A stretch of DNA of 64,000 nt from an uncultured Spirochaetia bacterium (lineage in GTDB: Bacteria; Spirochaetota; Spirochaetia; CAKZLE01). Each line of letters begins with the position of its first letter. Position 1 is the stretch's first letter. The notes beneath the pieces are model-generated. The model saw only the letters and a program-made list of their open reading frames with translations. It did no database searches and was not told where the DNA came from. The translations under genes were made by a program, and so were the position numbers. Shown in pieces: positions 53,433-62,831 of the stretch. The stretch lies in contig CAKZLE010000006.1 of assembly GCA_937125225.1 (NCBI GenBank), positions 124,001 to 188,000 on the forward strand. Reading direction: 5' to 3'.

Positions 53433-54644
53433 CTAATCGATAACTCTAGGATCACACTCCTGTGAGTAATCGATATCTGTACATCCAAATCCGTGTATCT
53501 GTTCGTACTCCTTACGGAACCCCTCGAGATCTGCTAGTTGCTGAAGATTTTCCTGTTCAATCGTATCCCAGGCTGCTTTGACCTGCGTCTGCACATCCTC
53601 TCGCATCTCCCAGTCATCAAGGCGAATCCTTCCTGCGTCATCAACAGGCACACCATCGGCCTGGTAAAGACGCTCTGTCATTAATCGATACATCTGTTCG
53701 ATGCATCCCTCATGCAGGTCTTTGTCTTTCATGATCCGATAAAGGATCGAAATATATAGAGGTACCACAGGTATGACTGAACTCGCACGTGTTACCAGTG
53801 CTTTATTGACTGAGACAAATGCCGTACCTTCGATATCATTAAGTGACTCTTCTATTTCTGAAGCAGTTGCTTCTAGATGTTCTTTTGCCTGTCCGATTGA
53901 TCCCTCTCGATAGATCGGGAAGGTCACTTCCGGTCCGATATAGGAATAGGCAACGGTCTTACAACCTTTGGCGAGGAGATCTCTCTCTTTCAGAACTTTC
54001 ATCCACAGAGTCCAGTCCTCTCCACCCATGACTTTCACCGTATGAGTTATCTGCTCTTCAGTAGCAGGTCCTACCTTAGCTACAGAGATCTGCTCTTTGA
54101 AAGGATCGATAGTCTTTGCTGAGTAGGTCGCTCCTGTCGTCTTCAGTACTGATCTGTAGGATTCTCCTGTATCAGGGTCAATCCTCAGAGGTGAAGCCAA
54201 AGAATAGACGACGAGATCGATCTTCCCATACTCTTTTTCGATGAGATCAAGAGTCTTTGCTTTGATCTCATGTGAAAAGGCATCACCCAGAATAGAGTCT
54301 GCCTTCAATCCCATCTTCCGGGCCTCCTGTTCGAAGGCCAAATTGTTATACCAACCGGGAGTGGCTGTCTTCTTTTCACTAGGTTCTCGCTCAAAAGAGA
54401 CATTGATCGTATCGGCCTTACCTAGGATACTTGCAGAGATACGTGTTGCAAGACCATAACCGGTAGAACCACCAATGATCAAAACTTTCTTAGGATAGGA
54501 AAGATTCTCTCCTGTAGAGTAGGAGGCATGCATTCCTGTTGCGGCCTCTTTGACCCATTGGATCTGCTGTTTCGTATACTCCGCACATCCTTTTGGATGA
54601 GCAGTCAGACTCACCCCACGCATAATCTTCTGTCTAATAATCAT
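53433..54644 (-). CDS. fabV: Trans-2-enoyl-ACP/CoA reductase FabV (TER family)
   Basis: The enzyme reduces trans-2-enoyl thioesters with NADH, the last step of each fatty acid elongation round. The 403-residue protein matches the Treponema denticola TER/FabV pattern from LTAHPKGCAEYTKQQI onward. It has the NADH motif IIGGSTGYGLATRI, TPGWYNNLAFE, SLASPLR, VKVMGGEDW and the catalytic Y-x8-K in YREGSIGQAK. The fab operon location points to ACP substrates and a role as the enoyl reductase in place of FabI or FabK. It is last in the operon, two bases after fabZ. Confidence 0.95.
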   Translation of the reverse strand: MIIRQKIMRGVSLTAHPKGCAEYTKQQIQWVKEAATGMHASYSTGENLSYPKKVLIIGGSTGYGLATRISASILGKADTINVSFEREPSEKKTATPGWYNNLAFEQEARKMGLKADSILGDAFSHEIKAKTLDLIEKEYGKIDLVVYSLASPLRIDPDTGESYRSVLKTTGATYSAKTIDPFKEQISVAKVGPATEEQITHTVKVMGGEDWTLWMKVLKERDLLAKGCKTVAYSYIGPEVTFPIYREGSIGQAKEHLEATASEIEESLNDIEGTAFVSVNKALVTRASSVIPVVPLYISILYRIMKDKDLHEGCIEQMYRLMTERLYQADGVPVDDAGRIRLDDWEMREDVQTQVKAAWDTIEQENLQQLADLEGFRKEYEQIHGFGCTDIDYSQECDPRVID

Positions 54645-54646
54645 AG

Positions 54647-55066
54647 CTATTCTCCCTCACTCACTAAGCACATCCAAGTTGCTTCAGCAGCTACTTCATC
54701 ATCTACTTTGACTATACCACTCTGCTTGATCATACGAGAAGAGGTTCTCAGGTTCGTTATTTCGATTATTGCCGTCTCTCCAGGTCTTACCTGTCGTCGG
54801 AATTTCGCTTTTTCGATAGTAGCTAAGAAGAACAGCCCACCCTTGACGATGCCGGCCTCTTTCAATCCTGCGCCGCCGCACTGAGCCATCATCTCGACAA
54901 GAAGGACTCCGGGTACTACCGGATATTCAGGAAAGTGTCCCTTGAAGAAGACATCTGTCTCCTTGAAGGTATGAGTACCTATGATCGACTCTTTGCTCAC
55001 CTCTATAAAATCATCCACGAAAAGAAACGGGTCTCTGTGGGGTATAAGACTCTTTATATCTGCCAT
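54647..55066 (-). CDS. fabZ: 3-hydroxyacyl-ACP dehydratase FabZ
   Basis: FabZ dehydrates 3-hydroxyacyl-ACP in elongation. The 139-residue hotdog-fold protein has LIPHRDPFLFVD and the catalytic His-Glu motif GHFPEYPVVPGVLLVEMMAQ. The segment KAKFRRQVRPGE is also conserved. It lies 15 bases after fabF and is the only dehydratase in the operon. Confidence 0.93.
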   Translation of the reverse strand: MADIKSLIPHRDPFLFVDDFIEVSKESIIGTHTFKETDVFFKGHFPEYPVVPGVLLVEMMAQCGGAGLKEAGIVKGGLFFLATIEKAKFRRQVRPGETAIIEITNLRTSSRMIKQSGIVKVDDEVAAEATWMCLVSEGE

Positions 55067-55081
55067 CTTTCTGTACTCCTG

Positions 55082-56338
55082 CTAGTCTTTATATTTTCCT
55101 AATACGATTGCCCCATTATGTCCCCCGAATCCTAAAGATTCAGAAAGAGCATAATCGATATTACCTGAAACACCCTGATTAGGGGTATAATCCAGATCAC
55201 ATTCAGGATCCGGTGTCTCCAGATTGATAGTTGCGGGAAAGAAGCTGTCTCTGATCGCCATGATCGAGATGATTGCTTCAACGGCGCCAGCTGCCCCTAC
55301 CATATGGGAGGTCATCGACTTCGTCGATGATACTTTCAATTTATAGGCATGAGCTCCAAAGGCTCTCTTGATCGCCTTGGTCTCCATCGGATCATTTACC
55401 GGTGTCGATGTCCCATGAGCATTGATATAATCGATCTGATCTGGGGTGATCCCTGCCTCTTCAATCGCTGCGAGCATCGCTCTAGCGGCTCCATCCCCTG
55501 TCGGATCAGGTGCTGTAAGATGGTAGGCGTCACAGGTCATCCCATAACCACAGACCTCACCATAGATGTGAGCACCACGTGATTTCGCATGTTCAAGCTC
55601 TTCAAGGACTAAGATACCCGCCCCCTCTCCTATGATGAAACCATCACGGTCTTTATCAAAGGGTCTACAGGCTTTCTGTGGGGTATCATTATATTTAGTG
55701 GAGAGTGCCTGGATCTTACAGAAGCCAGCGATCCCCAATCGAGTGATCGCACCCTCTGTACCACCAGTGATTGCTGTGTCTACAGTACCATATCTTATAG
55801 CATGTAGAGCAGCACCGATCGCATCAGTCGCTGATGAACAAGCTGTCACGATCGTAGAACAGGGTCCCTTCACACCGAATCTGATGGCAACATTACCTGC
55901 TCCCTCATTCGCAATGAGTTTTGGTATGGTCATTGGCTGAACCCCTCGAGGTCCTTTTGTCAGCAGTTTCTCAATACCCTGCTCCACAATCTCAAAGCCC
56001 CCGATACCATTTCCGAGATATACCCCGGTCTTATAGGGATCAAACTCTCTGTTCTCAAGATCATCGAGTTTAGCATCTTCCATAGCCTTAACTGCTGCAT
56101 ATACAGCATAGACGGAGAAATCAGCCATTCCTCTCATCTCTTTTCTATCCAGGACTGAGGAGGGATCAAAGTCCCTGACCTCTCCTGAGATCTTTGAAGG
56201 ATAATCTGTGGTATCGAATTTGGTCATAATACCAATCCCAGACTTCCCTGCTTTGATATTGCTCCATAACTCATCTACGGTATGGCCTAATGGTGAGACA
56301 ACACCCATGCCAGTTACCACTACTCTTCTTTGTTTCAT
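55082..56338 (-). CDS. fabF: Beta-ketoacyl-ACP synthase II
   Basis: FabF condenses malonyl-ACP with growing acyl chains. I start it at the ATG at 56338 (MKQRRVVVTGMGVVSPLG), eight bases after GGAGAG, giving 418 residues. The Cys-His-His active site is visible in TACSSATDAIGAALH, NAHGTSTPVNDPMETK and KSMTSHMVGAAGAVE. A small hairpin (56381-56398) lies in the 62-base gap after fabG, where many operons have acpP; no carrier-protein gene is present here. Confidence 0.95.
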   Translation of the reverse strand: MKQRRVVVTGMGVVSPLGHTVDELWSNIKAGKSGIGIMTKFDTTDYPSKISGEVRDFDPSSVLDRKEMRGMADFSVYAVYAAVKAMEDAKLDDLENREFDPYKTGVYLGNGIGGFEIVEQGIEKLLTKGPRGVQPMTIPKLIANEGAGNVAIRFGVKGPCSTIVTACSSATDAIGAALHAIRYGTVDTAITGGTEGAITRLGIAGFCKIQALSTKYNDTPQKACRPFDKDRDGFIIGEGAGILVLEELEHAKSRGAHIYGEVCGYGMTCDAYHLTAPDPTGDGAARAMLAAIEEAGITPDQIDYINAHGTSTPVNDPMETKAIKRAFGAHAYKLKVSSTKSMTSHMVGAAGAVEAIISIMAIRDSFFPATINLETPDPECDLDYTPNQGVSGNIDYALSESLGFGGHNGAIVLGKYKD

Positions 56339-56400
56339 TTTTCTCACTCTCCAACGTCATACGTCTTTAATGATTCTATCTCAGCATATACATGCTGATA

Positions 56401-57135
56401 TCACATGGTCATCCCACCATCTACAGCTAGGACCTGTCCGGTAATATATGATGCACGGTCTGAGGCTAGGAACACGACAGTCTCTGCCACCTCTCTTGCC
56501 TCTCCGATCCTACTTAGTGGAATCGTCTGTGCAAGGTTCTCTTTGAGCTCGTCAGAGAGAACATCCGTCATATCTGTCTTAATGAATCCAGGAGCAATCA
56601 CATTCACCCGAACTGACCGTGAAGAAAGTTCACGTGCCAGACTCTTAGAGAATCCGATGAGCCCTGCCTTTGAAGCTGCATAGTTCGTCTGCCCACCATT
56701 CCCGGTCAGCCCTACGACAGAAGAGATATTGATGATTGCCCCACCCCGAGCCTTTGCCATAGCACGAGAGATACTCCTGCAGGCAATAAAGGCACCGGTA
56801 AGATTCACCTTCAGAACATCCTCGAAGTCAGAGGTCTTCATTCTCATGATCAGTCCATCTCGAGTGATACCCGCATTGTTGACTAGGACATCCACTCTAC
56901 CCGCTTCCGCCAATATCGTCTTGAAGGCGTCACTGATAGAATCCTCATCACCCATATCGGTCTTGATCCAGGTGACCTTTCCCCTATTTTTGAGTTCCAT
57001 ATGATCTGCAGCTTCAGATCTACTCAGATAGTAGACCTCAGCACTCTCTTGCAATGCTCGTAGAACGATCTCATGACCGATCCCTCGAGAACCTCCGGTC
57101 ACTACAACTATCTTTTCGGCAAGTTCCATAGCCAT
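56401..57135 (-). CDS. fabG: 3-oxoacyl-ACP reductase
   Basis: FabG is an NADPH-dependent short-chain reductase. The 244-residue protein has VVTGGSRGIGHEI for the nucleotide, NNAGITRDGLIMRM, the catalytic Ser in ISSVVGLTGNGGQTNYAASK with the Tyr-x3-Lys at its end, and the C-terminal ITGQVLAVDGGM. The start shares TAATG with the fabD stop, so translation is coupled. Confidence 0.94.
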   Translation of the reverse strand: MAMELAEKIVVVTGGSRGIGHEIVLRALQESAEVYYLSRSEAADHMELKNRGKVTWIKTDMGDEDSISDAFKTILAEAGRVDVLVNNAGITRDGLIMRMKTSDFEDVLKVNLTGAFIACRSISRAMAKARGGAIINISSVVGLTGNGGQTNYAASKAGLIGFSKSLARELSSRSVRVNVIAPGFIKTDMTDVLSDELKENLAQTIPLSRIGEAREVAETVVFLASDRASYITGQVLAVDGGMTM

Positions 57136-58091
57136 TATCTTCCCCCTGCGTCTAATACTTCAGTCAATGAGTCCCAAGTTCCTACAGGTCTACAGGAGCT
57201 TTTTGAAGCTCCTGCCTTCCAAAAACCTGAGAGGACCTTTCCTGGACCGATCTCATAGCATCCATCTATCTCATCATGAGTCATCTTCACGATATCATCC
57301 ATGATCTTCGTCCATCTCACTGGTGAAGTCAACTGTTCTGAAAGAGAACGCTTAGCCTCCTCAGCAGTCAGGATCAATCCTCCATGAACATTCGTATAGA
57401 CGGCTCTCTTCGGATCCGTGAACGTGTAGCTTTCCAAGAATTCACTGAATCTATTGGCTGCTCCCTGCATAAGAGGAGTATGAAAAGGTCCTGAGACCTT
57501 CAATGGGATGACCCTTCTTGCCCCTGCGGTCTTAATTGCTTCTGAGACAGCTGAGATCGATTCTTTCACACCAGCGATCACGACCTGCTTCACGCTGTTA
57601 TCATTCGCTATATAAAGGTTAGCCAGACCTTGCTCTTTCAATACATCACAGACCGTATCATATCCGATACCGATGACTGCTGCCATTCCAAGTTCTCCGA
57701 CCTCAGAGGAGGCTCTCTCACCCTCTTCTGCCATGATCTTTCCTCGCATACTCGTGATCTCAAAGAGACTTTTCATATCGAAGATCCCTGCAGCATGGTA
57801 GGCTGAGAGCTCCCCGAGACTGAATCCTGCAAAGATATCACAGTCGATCCCAGCCTCCTGCAACAGGGTATAGGCTGCGATGTTTACGAGTGTTATAGAG
57901 ATCTGTGTATATTCTGTCTTTTTCAGAAGCTCTTCATTACCTGAGAATAGAACTTCTCTCATATCATGTCCACTCGCTTGAGATGCAAGATCAAAGAGGT
58001 TCTCTATTGCTGTTGAGTTCTCAAAGAGATCCTTTCCCATTCCAGGATATTGAGCTCCCTGTCCAGGGAACAGACCGACTTTTGTTACCAT
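57135..58091 (-). CDS. fabD: Malonyl-CoA:ACP transacylase
   Basis: FabD loads malonyl groups onto ACP. The 318-residue protein has the LFPGQGAQYPGMGKDL opening, the catalytic serine in AGFSLGELSAYHAAG, and the catalytic His in VSGPFHTPLMQGA. EIGPGKVLSGF is near the end. It overlaps the fabH 3' end by seven bases. Confidence 0.94.
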   Translation of the reverse strand: MVTKVGLFPGQGAQYPGMGKDLFENSTAIENLFDLASQASGHDMREVLFSGNEELLKKTEYTQISITLVNIAAYTLLQEAGIDCDIFAGFSLGELSAYHAAGIFDMKSLFEITSMRGKIMAEEGERASSEVGELGMAAVIGIGYDTVCDVLKEQGLANLYIANDNSVKQVVIAGVKESISAVSEAIKTAGARRVIPLKVSGPFHTPLMQGAANRFSEFLESYTFTDPKRAVYTNVHGGLILTAEEAKRSLSEQLTSPVRWTKIMDDIVKMTHDEIDGCYEIGPGKVLSGFWKAGASKSSCRPVGTWDSLTEVLDAGGR

Positions 58092-59092
58092 ACTATCAGA
58101 CTCCCTCCCGAAGTGAGGCCTGCGCCGAACCCTACGATAATGATCCGGTCCCCTCTTTTCAGGCGACCTTGATCCTCTAGCGTCTTCAGTGCTATCGGTA
58201 TCGAAGCTGCTGAGGTGTTAGCATAGTCTTCGATATTCACGAATACCTTCTCCGGTGATATCTTTAGACGTTTTGCAGCAGCCTGAATGATCCTGTTATT
58301 CGCCTGATGGGGAATGATCATATCGACATCATCAATAGTCAATCCATTCCTCTCCATGAGGTTCTTCGTCATCTCACTTAGCTGCTTCACGGCAAAATTA
58401 TATACCTTTCGTCCATCCATGGTAAGGGTCACATCTTCGACTGTCACATCTCGGTCTCTTAGAGGCTCCTTTGATCCACCACCTGGGACCATAAGACAAT
58501 CAGCCCCAGATCCATCAGCATAGAGGATCGTATCCTCTATTCCTCGATCAGGCGCCTGTTCATCCTCTATAGAAACGATGGCACATCCTGCGCCATCTCC
58601 AAAAAGTACACAAGTATTTCGATCATTCCAATTGACGATACTTGAAAGTTTCTCTGCACCGATCATCAATACGTTCTTCATCGTTCCAGCAAGGATCATT
58701 CCTCGAGCGACCTCTATCCCATAGATGAATCCTGTACAACCAGCGACGACATCGAAGGCAGGTACGCCAATGAGGCCGAGCTTCTGTTGTACGATACAGG
58801 CAGTAGAAGGGAACCCGACATGGTCAGGGGTAGCAGTAGCTATGATGATGCCGTCTATATCCTCTACAGTGAGGTCGCTTCGTTCGATTGCATCAAGAGC
58901 CGCATTGACGGCAAGGTCTGAAGTAGCGACATCATTCTCTGCAAGATGTCTTGCACCTATTCCAGTATGGGATCTGATCCATTCATCACTGGTATCAACG
59001 GTCTTAGCAAGTTCGTCGTTCGTTACTCTTCTAGCCGGTACGAAGGAACCTACCGATTCGATCGTTATATGTCGTATGGTCTTTTGCTCCAT
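58085..59092 (-). CDS. fabH: Beta-ketoacyl-ACP synthase III
   Basis: FabH starts fatty acid synthesis by condensing an acyl-CoA primer with malonyl-ACP. The 335-residue protein has the Cys-His-Asn triad in DVVAGCTGFIYGIEVARG, IIPHQANNRIIQAAAKRL and INIEDYANTSAASIP-type VNIEDYANTSAASIP. GFGAGLTSGGSL is at the C-terminus. AGGAGAG precedes the ATG. It is the first gene of fabHDGFZV. Whether it prefers acetyl-CoA or branched primers cannot be read, but the oxidoreductase module nearby could supply branched acyl-CoA. Confidence 0.94.
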   Translation of the reverse strand: MEQKTIRHITIESVGSFVPARRVTNDELAKTVDTSDEWIRSHTGIGARHLAENDVATSDLAVNAALDAIERSDLTVEDIDGIIIATATPDHVGFPSTACIVQQKLGLIGVPAFDVVAGCTGFIYGIEVARGMILAGTMKNVLMIGAEKLSSIVNWNDRNTCVLFGDGAGCAIVSIEDEQAPDRGIEDTILYADGSGADCLMVPGGGSKEPLRDRDVTVEDVTLTMDGRKVYNFAVKQLSEMTKNLMERNGLTIDDVDMIIPHQANNRIIQAAAKRLKISPEKVFVNIEDYANTSAASIPIALKTLEDQGRLKRGDRIIIVGFGAGLTSGGSLIVW

Positions 59093-59175
59093 CTTCTCTC
59101 CTGTTTCTTCTCAGATTTCAGGACTTACCCTGAAATAATAGTAATCTAGTTTATTTTTTACAAATATTCGGATTT

Positions 59176-59212
59176 TGTCAATATTGACAGCACAATATAA
59201 TATTGTTAATAT
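59176..59212. promoter_or_regulatory. Divergent fab/acc control region with two perfect palindromes and the acc promoter
   Basis: The acc promoter is TTGACA (59184-59189), a 17-base spacer and TAATAT (59207-59212). The -35 lies in a perfect 14-bp palindrome, TGTCAATATTGACA (59176-59189), which also gives TTGACA on the minus strand towards fabH, though a good minus-strand -10 is not evident. A second palindrome, ACAATAT-A-ATATTGT (59192-59206), fills the spacer. Both are candidate operators for a shared regulator. Confidence 0.62.
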
Positions 59213-59265
59213 CAGAGAGATGGATGGTAGGATCTACCGACCATGAGATTATCAGGAGGAATACT

Positions 59266-59718
59266 ATGGAAATTGAATATATATCTTCTCTTATTGAACT
59301 ATTCGAGAAATCATCCCTTACAGAACTTCAGATATCTGAAGATAACAAAGAGATCACATTAAAACGAGAGAAGGAGATCCAGGTACAGACCGTTACAACC
59401 GCTCCAATTCAAACTCAGTCACAGAATCCACTAGCTGCTCAACAGACAGAAGAGCCACTCCTACCTCAGGAGAAAGATACCATAATAATACCCTCTCCGA
59501 TTGTCGGGACATTCTATAGGACACCGGCTCCTGATGCTCCACCTTTTATTGAGGTCGGTGATATAGTACAGTCTGGCGATGCACTATGTATCATCGAAGC
59601 GATGAAGATGATGAATCGGCTTGAAGCTGAATTCCCCTGTGAGATCGTAGCTATTCATGCCCAACATGGTGATCTCGTAGAATATGGTGCCGCACTATTA
59701 GAGGTAAAACGTATATGA
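59266..59718 (+). CDS. accB: Biotin carboxyl carrier protein of acetyl-CoA carboxylase
   Basis: AccB carries the carboxylated biotin between AccC and AccDA. The ATG at 59266 (MEIEYISSLIELFEKS) has AGGAGG (59254-59259) upstream. The 150-residue protein has an N-terminal helical part, a Gln/Thr/Pro-rich linker (about 38-70) and the biotinyl domain with EAMKMMN (biotin on K114) and the thumb segment PAPDAPPFIEVGD. Its last four bases overlap accC (ATGA). Confidence 0.94.
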   Translation: MEIEYISSLIELFEKSSLTELQISEDNKEITLKREKEIQVQTVTTAPIQTQSQNPLAAQQTEEPLLPQEKDTIIIPSPIVGTFYRTPAPDAPPFIEVGDIVQSGDALCIIEAMKMMNRLEAEFPCEIVAIHAQHGDLVEYGAALLEVKRI

Positions 59719-61031
59719 TCTCATCCATACTCATCGCGAACAGAGGAGAGATCGCTGTCAGAATCATCCGTTGTTGTCGTGATCTCGGGATAAGATCGGT
59801 AGCTATCTATTCTGAGCCTGATGCCGATTCCCTTCATGTGAAGATGGCTGATATCGCAGTCTGTATCGGACCGGCAGCATCAACTGATAGTTATCTCCAT
59901 ACTCAGAACATCATCGCAGCAGCTTGTGGTAAGGGATGTGATGCGATCCATCCCGGAGTAGGTTTCCTCTCAGAGAATGCTGAGTTCGCAAAAGAGGTCC
60001 AGCAAGCTGGACTGATCTTTATTGGACCAGAACCTAAGACGATCGATCAGGTTGGAAACAAAGTACAGGCAAGAAAGACTGCACAGGATGCGGGCCTCCC
60101 CCTCACCCCAGGCTCCCCGGGGCCGATCACCTCCGTAGAAGAGGCATTAGCCATAGCAGAGAAGATCGAATACCCGATCATCATCAAAGCCGCTGCAGGT
60201 GGTGGTGGACGTGGCATGAGAATAGTCGAAGAGCCTTCAGAGATGAGCGAAGCTTTTGCTATCGCATCTCATGAGGCCCTCTCATTCTTCTCAAACGGGA
60301 CAATCTATATTGAGAAGTATCTACGAAACCCGAGACATGTCGAAGTCCAGCTTATCGCTGATTCTCAAGGGACTGTGGTACACCTCGGTGAACGAGACTG
60401 CTCAGTACAGAAGAACCATCAGAAGTTGATCGAAGAGAGTCCCTCTACTGTACTCTCCTCATCACATAGAGATAAGATGTGCAAAGATGCGGTTCGACTG
60501 TTCAAGAAACTCCACTATCTTGGAGCGGGTACAGTAGAGTTCCTCGTCTATGAGAATAAACACTACTTCATGGAGGTCAATGCTCGAGTCCAGGTCGAAC
60601 ATCCGGTCTCAGAGACCATCTCTGGTGTCGATATCATAAAGGATCAGATTCGAGTCGCGGCAGGAGAACCCCTAGGCTATTCACAGAAACAGATCCGTCT
60701 ATCGGGTTATGCTATGGAGTGCAGGATCAATGCAAAGACTCCAGGACCGATCGGGACATTCAACCCTCCTCTCGGGCCGGGAGTACGTGTTGATACACAT
60801 ATGTATGCAGGGGGTTCTATAAGCCCCTACTACGACCCATTGGCTGCCAAGATCATCATCCATGCTGAGACAAGAGCGGCAGGGATCAAGATGATGCTTC
60901 GAGCCCTACGTGAATTGGAAATATCAGGGATTACGACGAATATGGATGAACAGATGACCATCTTGAACTCCACATTATTCAAATCCGGTACCTTTGGTAC
61001 TGATATCTATTCTCGAATCTTTCAGGAGTAA
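59715..61031 (+). CDS. accC: Biotin carboxylase subunit of acetyl-CoA carboxylase
   Basis: AccC carboxylates biotin on AccB with ATP and bicarbonate. The 438-residue ATP-grasp protein shows ILIANRGEIAVRIIR, IHPGVGFLSENAEFA, IIKAAAGGGGRGMRIV and VHLGERDCSVQ. The bicarbonate-site segment reads MEVNARVQVEHPVSE. It differs from the common RRHQKL by KNHQKL after CSVQ, but the catalytic Lys, Glu and Arg positions look intact. It follows accB with a four-base overlap. Confidence 0.94.
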   Translation: MISSILIANRGEIAVRIIRCCRDLGIRSVAIYSEPDADSLHVKMADIAVCIGPAASTDSYLHTQNIIAAACGKGCDAIHPGVGFLSENAEFAKEVQQAGLIFIGPEPKTIDQVGNKVQARKTAQDAGLPLTPGSPGPITSVEEALAIAEKIEYPIIIKAAAGGGGRGMRIVEEPSEMSEAFAIASHEALSFFSNGTIYIEKYLRNPRHVEVQLIADSQGTVVHLGERDCSVQKNHQKLIEESPSTVLSSSHRDKMCKDAVRLFKKLHYLGAGTVEFLVYENKHYFMEVNARVQVEHPVSETISGVDIIKDQIRVAAGEPLGYSQKQIRLSGYAMECRINAKTPGPIGTFNPPLGPGVRVDTHMYAGGSISPYYDPLAAKIIIHAETRAAGIKMMLRALRELEISGITTNMDEQMTILNSTLFKSGTFGTDIYSRIFQE

Positions 61032-61036
61032 TTTAT

Positions 61037-61831
61037 ATGGTTGATTTTGATATGAAACACATTGTTGATTGCCCGTCATGTAAGGTCTCCATACAGAGAC
61101 AGAGATTAGAAGAATCTCTGTATGTTTGTCCAGAATGCGGGTATCATTTCAGACTGACTCCTGCTGAACGTATTCAGCAGATTGCCGATACTGACAGCTT
61201 CTTGGAGTTTGCTGCAGAACTTACTTCCCAGAACCCGATCGAATTGATCGGATATGAGTCGAAGCTCTCCCAGAATCAGAGAAAATCTGATCTCAAGGAT
61301 GCCGTGGTAGTAGGGAATTGTCTCATTGATGAGCAGGCTGCCGTACTCGGAATCATGTCCTTCCAGTTCATGGGAGGTTCTATGGGCTCTGTAGTAGGGG
61401 AGAAGATCACTCAGGCTATGCTTCAAGGGGCTGATACCAACACCCCGGTGATCCTGTTCACCGCATCAGGAGGAGCTAGAATGCAAGAGGGGATTTTCTC
61501 CCTCATGCAGATGGCTAAGACCTCAAGCGCTGCGGCCCTTCTTGAGGAGACCGGAACCCCTCTATTCATTGTGATAACCCATCCGACAACAGGAGGTGTC
61601 ACTGCATCATTTGCCATGCTTGGAGATATTATCATGGCAGAACCTGGTGCACTCATTGGATTCGCAGGTCCAAGAGTCATCGAAGGGACCATCGGTGAGA
61701 AGCTCCCAAAGGGCTTTCAGACCGCTGAGTTCCAGTTGGAAAAAGGTTTCGTAGATTCCATAGTACACCGAAAGGATATGAGAGCGACCCTCGCGTACCT
61801 CTTACGTATCCATGCGAACAGGGGTAATTGA
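61037..61831 (+). CDS. accD: Acetyl-CoA carboxylase carboxyltransferase beta subunit
   Basis: AccD with AccA transfers CO2 from biotin to acetyl-CoA. The 264-residue protein has the N-terminal zinc ribbon (C12, C15, C31, C34), the crotonase-fold motif FMGGSMGSVVGEKI, ASGGARMQEG and HPTTGGVTASFAMLGD. It ends in GPRVIEGTIGEKLPKGFQ. It is five bases after accC and one base before the accA start. Confidence 0.95.
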   Translation: MVDFDMKHIVDCPSCKVSIQRQRLEESLYVCPECGYHFRLTPAERIQQIADTDSFLEFAAELTSQNPIELIGYESKLSQNQRKSDLKDAVVVGNCLIDEQAAVLGIMSFQFMGGSMGSVVGEKITQAMLQGADTNTPVILFTASGGARMQEGIFSLMQMAKTSSAAALLEETGTPLFIVITHPTTGGVTASFAMLGDIIMAEPGALIGFAGPRVIEGTIGEKLPKGFQTAEFQLEKGFVDSIVHRKDMRATLAYLLRIHANRGN

Positions 61832-61832
61832 T

Positions 61833-62831
61833 ATGAGTGAGAAACAAGAAGATATAAGTGAACTGTTAGGAAGACTAGAGAAGCTAGCAAAAGATGAACA
61901 ACTCGACCTTGAAAGAGAGATCACCGACCTCAAGGCCCGTCTGGTCCCTGTTCAAAAGAACAGGGAGGTGCAGCCATCGTCAGCATGGGACAGAGTCTGT
62001 CTAGCAAGGCATGTAGACCGCCCGGGAACCCTAGAATACATCAGTATGATCTGTGATGATTTCATGCAGTTGCATGGAGATCGTTGTTATGGAGATGACC
62101 CAGCTCTCATCGGGGGAATAGGTTCTATCAACGGTAGAGCGATCACCTTCATAGGAAACCAAAAGGGTTCGAACCTGAAGGAGAATATAAGACGCAACCA
62201 TGGGATGGGGCATCCAGAAGGATATAGAAAAGCACTCCGTCTTGCAAAGCAGGCAGAGAAGTTCTCTAGACCGATCGTCACATTCATCGACACCTCAGGT
62301 GCCTATCCTGGTCTTGAGGCTGAACAGCGAGGAATTGGAGAGGCCATAGCTAGAAATCTAAAAGAGTTCTCCGTCCTCAAAGTCCCTGTGATCTGTTTCA
62401 TCATCGGTGAGGGTGGTTCTGGAGGTGCATTGGGAATCGGAGTCGGAGATAAACTCTACATGCTCGAAAATGCCGTCTACTCTGTCATCTCCCCAGAGGG
62501 CTTCGCATCGATCCTGCTGAGAGATTCATCAAAGGCCGAACAGGCTGCCAACACGATGAAGATCACAGCGACAGACTTGAAGGAGTTCGGGATCATCCAT
62601 GATATCGTATCAGAACCCTCAGGTGGGGCTCATAAGGATCCTCAGTTCGTTGCCTCACAGATCAAAGATATCATCAGCCGAGATTTTGACATACTCTGTA
62701 CCAAACAGCCTAGCAGGCTCGTCAGATACAGGATCAAGAAGATCAGGGGAATCGGACATTTCAATGGACCGGCAGGTAGCTGGTGGGACCAACTCTTAAA
62801 CATATACCCTCTCACAAGGGCATTACGCTAA
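61833..62831 (+). CDS. accA: Acetyl-CoA carboxylase carboxyltransferase alpha subunit
   Basis: This is the partner of AccD. I start it at 61833 (MSEKQEDISELLGRL), with AGGGG in the accD end; the ATG at 61812 lacks support. The 332-residue protein has an N-terminal coiled coil (about 5-40) and ARHVDRPGTLEYI. It continues with FMQLHGDRCYGDDPALIGG, HPEGYRKALRLAKQAEKF and FIDTSGAYPGLEAEQRGIGE. The oxyanion-hole region is IGEGGSGGALGIGVGD. It is last in accBCDA and ends at a terminator. Confidence 0.95.
   Translation: MSEKQEDISELLGRLEKLAKDEQLDLEREITDLKARLVPVQKNREVQPSSAWDRVCLARHVDRPGTLEYISMICDDFMQLHGDRCYGDDPALIGGIGSINGRAITFIGNQKGSNLKENIRRNHGMGHPEGYRKALRLAKQAEKFSRPIVTFIDTSGAYPGLEAEQRGIGEAIARNLKEFSVLKVPVICFIIGEGGSGGALGIGVGDKLYMLENAVYSVISPEGFASILLRDSSKAEQAANTMKITATDLKEFGIIHDIVSEPSGGAHKDPQFVASQIKDIISRDFDILCTKQPSRLVRYRIKKIRGIGHFNGPAGSWWDQLLNIYPLTRALR

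Follow-up and report, generated by a model that had tools for sequence, protein, structure and literature searches.

A conserved palindrome at the divergent fab and acc promoters of a spirochaete, the probable operator of a TetR-family regulator of fatty-acid synthesis

In the window, which is the whole 64,000-nucleotide stretch of spirochaete DNA analysed here, the operons fabH-fabD-fabG-fabF-fabZ-fabV (- strand) and accB-accC-accD-accA (+ strand) diverge, and two palindromes lie between fabH and accB; the locus raises the question of whether either palindrome is the operator of a regulator shared by both operons, and which protein would bind it. The nearest named relatives of the FabH encoded in the window are from a Spirochaetales bacterium (57% identity) and Spirochaetaceae bacterium BB7 (53%). 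The features of the locus are as follows.

53433-54644, - strand: fabV; in relatives tetR follows next after fabV
54647-55066, - strand: fabZ
55082-56347, - strand: fabF
56401-57135, - strand: fabG
57135-58091, - strand: fabD (255.7 bits, cut-off 260.9)
58085-59092, - strand: fabH, first gene of the fab operon
59153-59162, - strand: weak -10 region of the fabH promoter (TGT, then A-rich; AAAAAT at 59153-59158)
59176-59181, - strand: -35 box TTGACA of the fabH promoter (sequence reading)
59176-59189, no strand: palindrome TGTCAATATTGACA, proposed TetR-family operator; two back-to-back -35 boxes with TA between
59184-59189, + strand: -35 box TTGACA of the acc promoter (sequence reading)
59192-59206, no strand: second palindrome ACAATATAATATTGT, AT-rich spacer, confined to the window's genome
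59204-59212, + strand: extended -10 of the acc promoter, TGT-TAATAT, spacer 17
59266-59718, + strand: accB, first gene of the acc operon
59715-61031, + strand: accC
61037-61831, + strand: accD
61812-62831, + strand: accA

Direct reading of the sequence bears out an earlier note on this DNA, which had described two adjacent perfect palindromes (a 14-mer and the 15-mer ACAATAT-A-ATATTGT) and overlapping TTGACA boxes for both directions. The acc promoter (59184-59212) is near-perfect on the + strand, with TTGACA, 17 nt and TAATAT with an extended TG; the fabH-side promoter has the TTGACA box and a poor -10 (AAAAAT). A short perfect hairpin, GGTAG-GAT-CTACC, is seen by eye at 59226-59238 in the accB leader, 5' of the ribosome-binding site. 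The window contains 21 perfect palindromes with arms of at least 7, where 20 first-order Markov sequences average 8.75; two adjacent palindromes in a 173-bp stretch of like composition arose in 0.0004 of 5000 simulations, a figure that is optimistic given the general palindrome excess of the window. Since palindromes of such size are common in the window, their shape says little, and the decision rests on conservation.

By that measure the first palindrome is real: relatives of the window's genome conserve it far beyond chance. Of 394 genomes in the class, 49 contain exact TGTCAATATTGACA, whereas its reversed sequence, the control, turns up in 2. There are 58 exact sites, of which 35 adjoin fab or acc genes (two of these are contig ends in G240 and may be one site), 4 precede an iron-type alcohol dehydrogenase and 19 lie elsewhere, many of the last apparently within reading frames; the fab/acc palindromes fall in families f1, f8, f17 and f26. 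That the palindromes are chance products of AT-rich DNA would agree with their frequency in the window, but for the first palindrome this explanation is refuted by exact conservation across families and by the reversed control, and it is considered to have next to no probability. Because the consensus holds two -35 boxes, part of this conservation is promoter function.

The second palindrome does fill 15 of the 17 spacer bases of the acc promoter, as had been claimed; the expectation that it would be conserved in close relatives fails, as the equivalent position is palindromic in 1 of 41 comparable sites, the window's own, and is already broken in the nearest relative (G001). Among 348 loci it recurs only in two overlapping copies of the window's own locus. 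The second palindrome is therefore rejected as an operator on the figure of 1/41; it is probably not one, and chance is its likely status. The proposal that occupancy of either palindrome would shut off acc and fab together consequently survives for the first, which is conserved and spans both -35 boxes, and is dropped for the second.

The conserved site and a TetR-family gene are distributed together across the class, as shown by the 300 bp preceding fabH. A site with at most two mismatches lies within 150 bp of fabH in 43 of 52 TetR-positive loci (25 of the 52 having entered through the exact-site search) versus 0 of 61 TetR-negative or weak-TetR loci, the latter set of 31 + 30 loci being a sample drawn among the fabH matches listed; counted by genus, the figures are 13/17 versus 0/43 (Fisher 4.6e-10, uncorrected for kinship), and the co-distribution may reflect few ancestral events. 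The 52 positive loci divide into 33 exact sites, 5 with one mismatch, 5 with two and 9 with four or five; these last nine fabH regions, which are without the site and count against the TetR reading, belong to G003 (both copies), G049, G026, G089, G120, G129, G040 and G210. A single TetR-negative or weak locus (L270) carries a two-mismatch sequence, at -294 and so outside the 150 bp. Positives are all genomes with a TetR match of at least 140 bits and a FabH, among the matches listed, apart from G100 (TetR-positive and FabH-bearing, absent from the 52-locus set), together with G228 (weak TetR match) and G017 (truncated TetR), which were kept; G168 (weak TetR) was excluded from the positives, G042 (no upstream sequence) from the negatives, and G146 has no FabH match. 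Genus g74 is represented in both sets: its 8 TetR-positive members all carry the site, 7 of them exactly and 1 with a single mismatch, and it is absent from the member in which TetR was undetected (G156, 77% complete). In 18 TetR-positive genomes AccC gave no match at E <=1e-100, in a search run without a positive control.

The candidate regulator is encoded outside the window, at G000:C3:102812-103411 on the minus strand, G000 being the window's genome. It matches the N-terminal helix-turn-helix model TetR_N (PF00440) with 48.4 bits against a cut-off of 24. Among its 19 NCBIfam matches, which include no FabR model, the nearest is the Bacillus-type FadR model NF053878 (48.5 bits, below the cut-off of 200), and the mycobacterial FasR model NF053731 gives 37.5 bits, below its cut-off of 330; among solved chains the closest are TetR proteins of weak similarity, including the Bacillus fatty-acid regulator. 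FabT is a MarR-type protein, and the TetR_N domain of the candidate places it outside that type. FapR (NF003359) is ruled out as the regulator, with a best match in the window's genome of 20.4 bits against a cut-off of 183. The suspicion that a different fatty-acid regulator acts here is thereby strongly supported, and the protein indicated is this fab-linked member of the TetR family.

TetR matches at E <=1e-12 occur in 201 of 394 class genomes, with strong ones in f1, f3, f8, f17 and f26. The linkage of tetR to fab operons is likewise established: tetR lies in the fab operon in families f17 and f26, and in the three loci checked (L006, L232, L233) it stands directly 3' of fabV in the order fabH-(fabD)-fabG-fabF-fabZ-fabV-tetR, with no fabD matched in L006 and its tetR cut off at the locus end. 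By coordinate comparison, at least 16 genomes have tetR less than 8 kb from fabH, both genes being on one contig and one strand (G026, G040, G046, G057, G072, G078, G089, G111, G120, G129, G137, G150, G174, G198, G222 and G234). A gene linked to fab, with a site before fab genes, is what would be looked for in a TetR-type regulator of fatty-acid synthesis, and the candidate shows both. The helix-turn-helix segment ISRPTxYQYF is common to palindrome-bearing genomes, and ITRTxLYxYF is found in most distant homologues from genomes without the palindrome.

It is possible in principle that the palindrome is the operator of some protein other than this TetR candidate, as tetR in f8 lies away from fab and has no site in its own promoter; 26 of 30 tetR upstream regions have no match within 3 mismatches, including all 23 from f8. 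Against this, tetR is part of the fab operon in f17 and f26, a site precedes tetR itself in f1 and part of f3 (degenerate in G066 and G003, with 2 mismatches each, and in G001, with 3), gene and site are co-distributed, and FapR does not exceed its cut-off in the genome; a different binding protein is thus considered very unlikely.

The main rival explanation dispenses with a regulator altogether: the palindrome would be two back-to-back consensus -35 boxes, with RNA polymerase as the sole ligand and the two promoters in competition. Both halves are indeed TTGACA, the + strand promoter is near-perfect, and elements resembling extended -10s lie at fixed distances, with TGT exactly 13 nt past the palindrome in 43/43 related fabH-side sites and ACA 14 nt past it in 28/41 related acc-side sites; these outer TGT and ACA elements can be read as the TG of extended -10 elements. 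Promoter function as the whole account, however, fits poorly with the absence of the palindrome from divergent fabH/accB pairs that lack a strong TetR match (G025, G045, G062; loci L096, L097, L184), and with its persistence where no acc gene, or no divergent gene at all, lies opposite. The genomes G072 and G057 have the exact palindrome, and there fabH faces a sugar kinase-like gene (PfkB by Pfam in G072), not accB.

Sites before an alcohol dehydrogenase bear on the same point. Genus g32 of family f8 has the TetR too, with no FabH match at E <=1e-60 among the matches listed, and 31 of the 48 g32 genomes gave a match to an iron-type alcohol dehydrogenase. All 29 usable regions of the alcohol-dehydrogenase loci (L298-L327; 1 of 30 was dropped as too short) carry a site with 0-4 mismatches at -43 to -77, and the nearest upstream frame runs in the same direction as the alcohol dehydrogenase in 20 of 28 (by a mechanical rule that counts frames of 110 codons or more). 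In these sites the left half has shifted towards TGTTTT, which makes a poor -35, yet TGT (27, 29 and 29 of 29 by position) and ACA (29, 29 and 27 of 29) are kept, which speaks against a mere pair of -35 boxes; the polymerase-only explanation is accordingly regarded as unlikely. Judged from the sequence, the proposed fab-type operator is re-used before the alcohol dehydrogenase in g32. Outer elements are also seen at these loci, with TGT 14 nt past the site on the gene side in 25/29 and ACA 13 or 14 nt past the other side in 26/29; the other-side ACA occurs in 17 of 20 cases in which the nearest upstream frame is not divergent, and these elements reflect either an unannotated divergent transcript or part of the operator.

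The reading preferred here, and held to be quite probable, is that TGTCAATATTGACA is the operator of a spirochaete TetR-family regulator of fatty-acid synthesis, which would repress fabHDGFZV and accBCDA together through both -35 boxes. The TetR protein would bind TGTCAATATTGACA, and binding would repress; since the two divergent promoters both have their -35 box within 59176-59189, a dimer bound there would cover the pair at once, and joint repression of the fab and acc operons is the simplest reading, with action as an activator being possible. The signal would be a fatty acyl thioester or a precursor, the former being the likely ligand by analogy to FasR and MabR. The regulator probably also controls itself and the NADPH-supplying pathway encoded by pgl and zwf, as suggested by a one-mismatch site between tetR and these genes. 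This site, TGTTAATATTGACA, lies ~110 bp 5' of the tetR gene and is divergent from pgl (6-phosphogluconolactonase) and zwf (glucose-6-phosphate dehydrogenase), both of which are opposite tetR in G000 (contig C3). Inspection by eye shows a GC-rich inverted repeat and then a T run in the stretch from the proposed operator to pgl (L002:1592-1618, G000:C3); these resemble an attenuator or terminator of the pgl-zwf leader. In G057, zwf-like and pgl-like genes (names by eye) are found ~2 kb past tetR on the opposite strand (L232:8564-10673).

The window's genome contains 26 places within two mismatches of the 14-mer, of which 4, and 20 of the remaining 22, were examined with flanking sequence. Sites with at most one mismatch comprise only three in promoter regions, a small number that counts against the TetR reading, and two more inside reading frames; the four with exactly one mismatch are those before tetR, before a FabK/NMO-like gene and two within reading frames. 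Reading frames of 150 codons or more enclose 15 of the 20, leaving 5 outside such frames. None of these 5 places was counted as a target: L248 and L253 are within shorter frames, L247 is unclassified, the L249 site is terminator-like and lies between two converging genes, and the two-mismatch site L251:1249-1262 (G000:C20) lies between pyruvate-dehydrogenase E1-like and kinase-like genes (names by eye). On the same contig, a Cas1-like reading frame followed by a CRISPR-like repeat array was seen by eye (L331:1409-2902). The FabK/NMO-like gene is a possible target; its site has 1 mismatch in G000 (L003:1501-1514) and 2 in G001 (L337), with TGTCA 13 nt past it in both, and the corresponding gene of G003 has no such site.

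The additional sites anticipated before acpP and plsX did not materialise. No site within 2 mismatches was found at any of 10 ACP loci from 9 genomes, the nearest having 3 mismatches (L342 and L347), and acpP is rejected as a target; plsX (TIGR00182) is rejected likewise, being undetected in 9/9 genomes (G000, G001, G008, G276, G236, G335, G057, G174, G299) by a search that was positive in 8 of 14 known genomes used as a control. Phospholipid acyl transfer may proceed in these genomes without plsX via another route.

A broader and more tentative idea, thought somewhat less likely to be right than wrong, is that the arrangement TnACA - 13/14 nt - TGTCAATATTGACA - 13/14 nt - TGTnA is a portable unit, a spirochaete bidirectional promoter-operator through which a single TetR would keep fab, acc and pgl-zwf in step; it would be re-used at the g32 alcohol dehydrogenase with the outward element kept though no divergent gene is seen. 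Under such a scheme fab would provide chain synthesis, acc malonyl-CoA supply and pgl-zwf NADPH supply.

In the open-licence literature searched there is no report of a TetR/14-mer regulator or of a spirochaete regulator of fatty-acid synthesis, and the 14-mer itself appears there in just two papers, both on unrelated subjects. If the proposed operator is correct, it would provide a specific gene, an exact operator and a testable predicted regulon for fatty-acid synthesis in spirochaetes; one dimer on a shared -35 pair would be a clear case of setting the balance between malonyl-CoA supply and chain elongation, and lipid regulation would become predictable from sequence across several families of the class.

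FabR of Escherichia coli is a TetR-family repressor of fatty-acid synthesis genes. According to an excerpt of PMC5052256, FabR adjusts unsaturated fatty acids, and FapR is a global fab regulator whose 17-bp inverted repeat lies within promoters or immediately after them, and also before its own gene; FapR is a different protein from the spirochaete candidate and is not over the cut-off in the window's genome. The TetR-family FadR of Bacillus and Thermus resembles the candidate in family, in supplying its nearest NCBIfam model and in the presence of the Bacillus protein among the nearest solved chains. The Thermus FadR has a short palindromic operator, the 15-mer TTRNACYNRGTNYAA (PMC5597230, in part); FadR, however, controls degradation genes through another operator sequence, whereas the spirochaete targets are fab and acc. 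The actinobacterial proteins FasR and MabR regulate synthesis operons and have inverted-repeat sites, and their binding is modulated by long-chain acyl-CoA (PMC5541348 and PMC7382501, both in part). FasR is alike in being a TetR-like regulator of synthesis operons; both actinobacterial proteins, however, activate, and their sites lie upstream of the promoter, where the spirochaete site covers both -35 boxes. The spirochaete TetR would therefore join the known TetR-type regulators of fatty-acid synthesis, its special feature being a shared operator at back-to-back -35 boxes.
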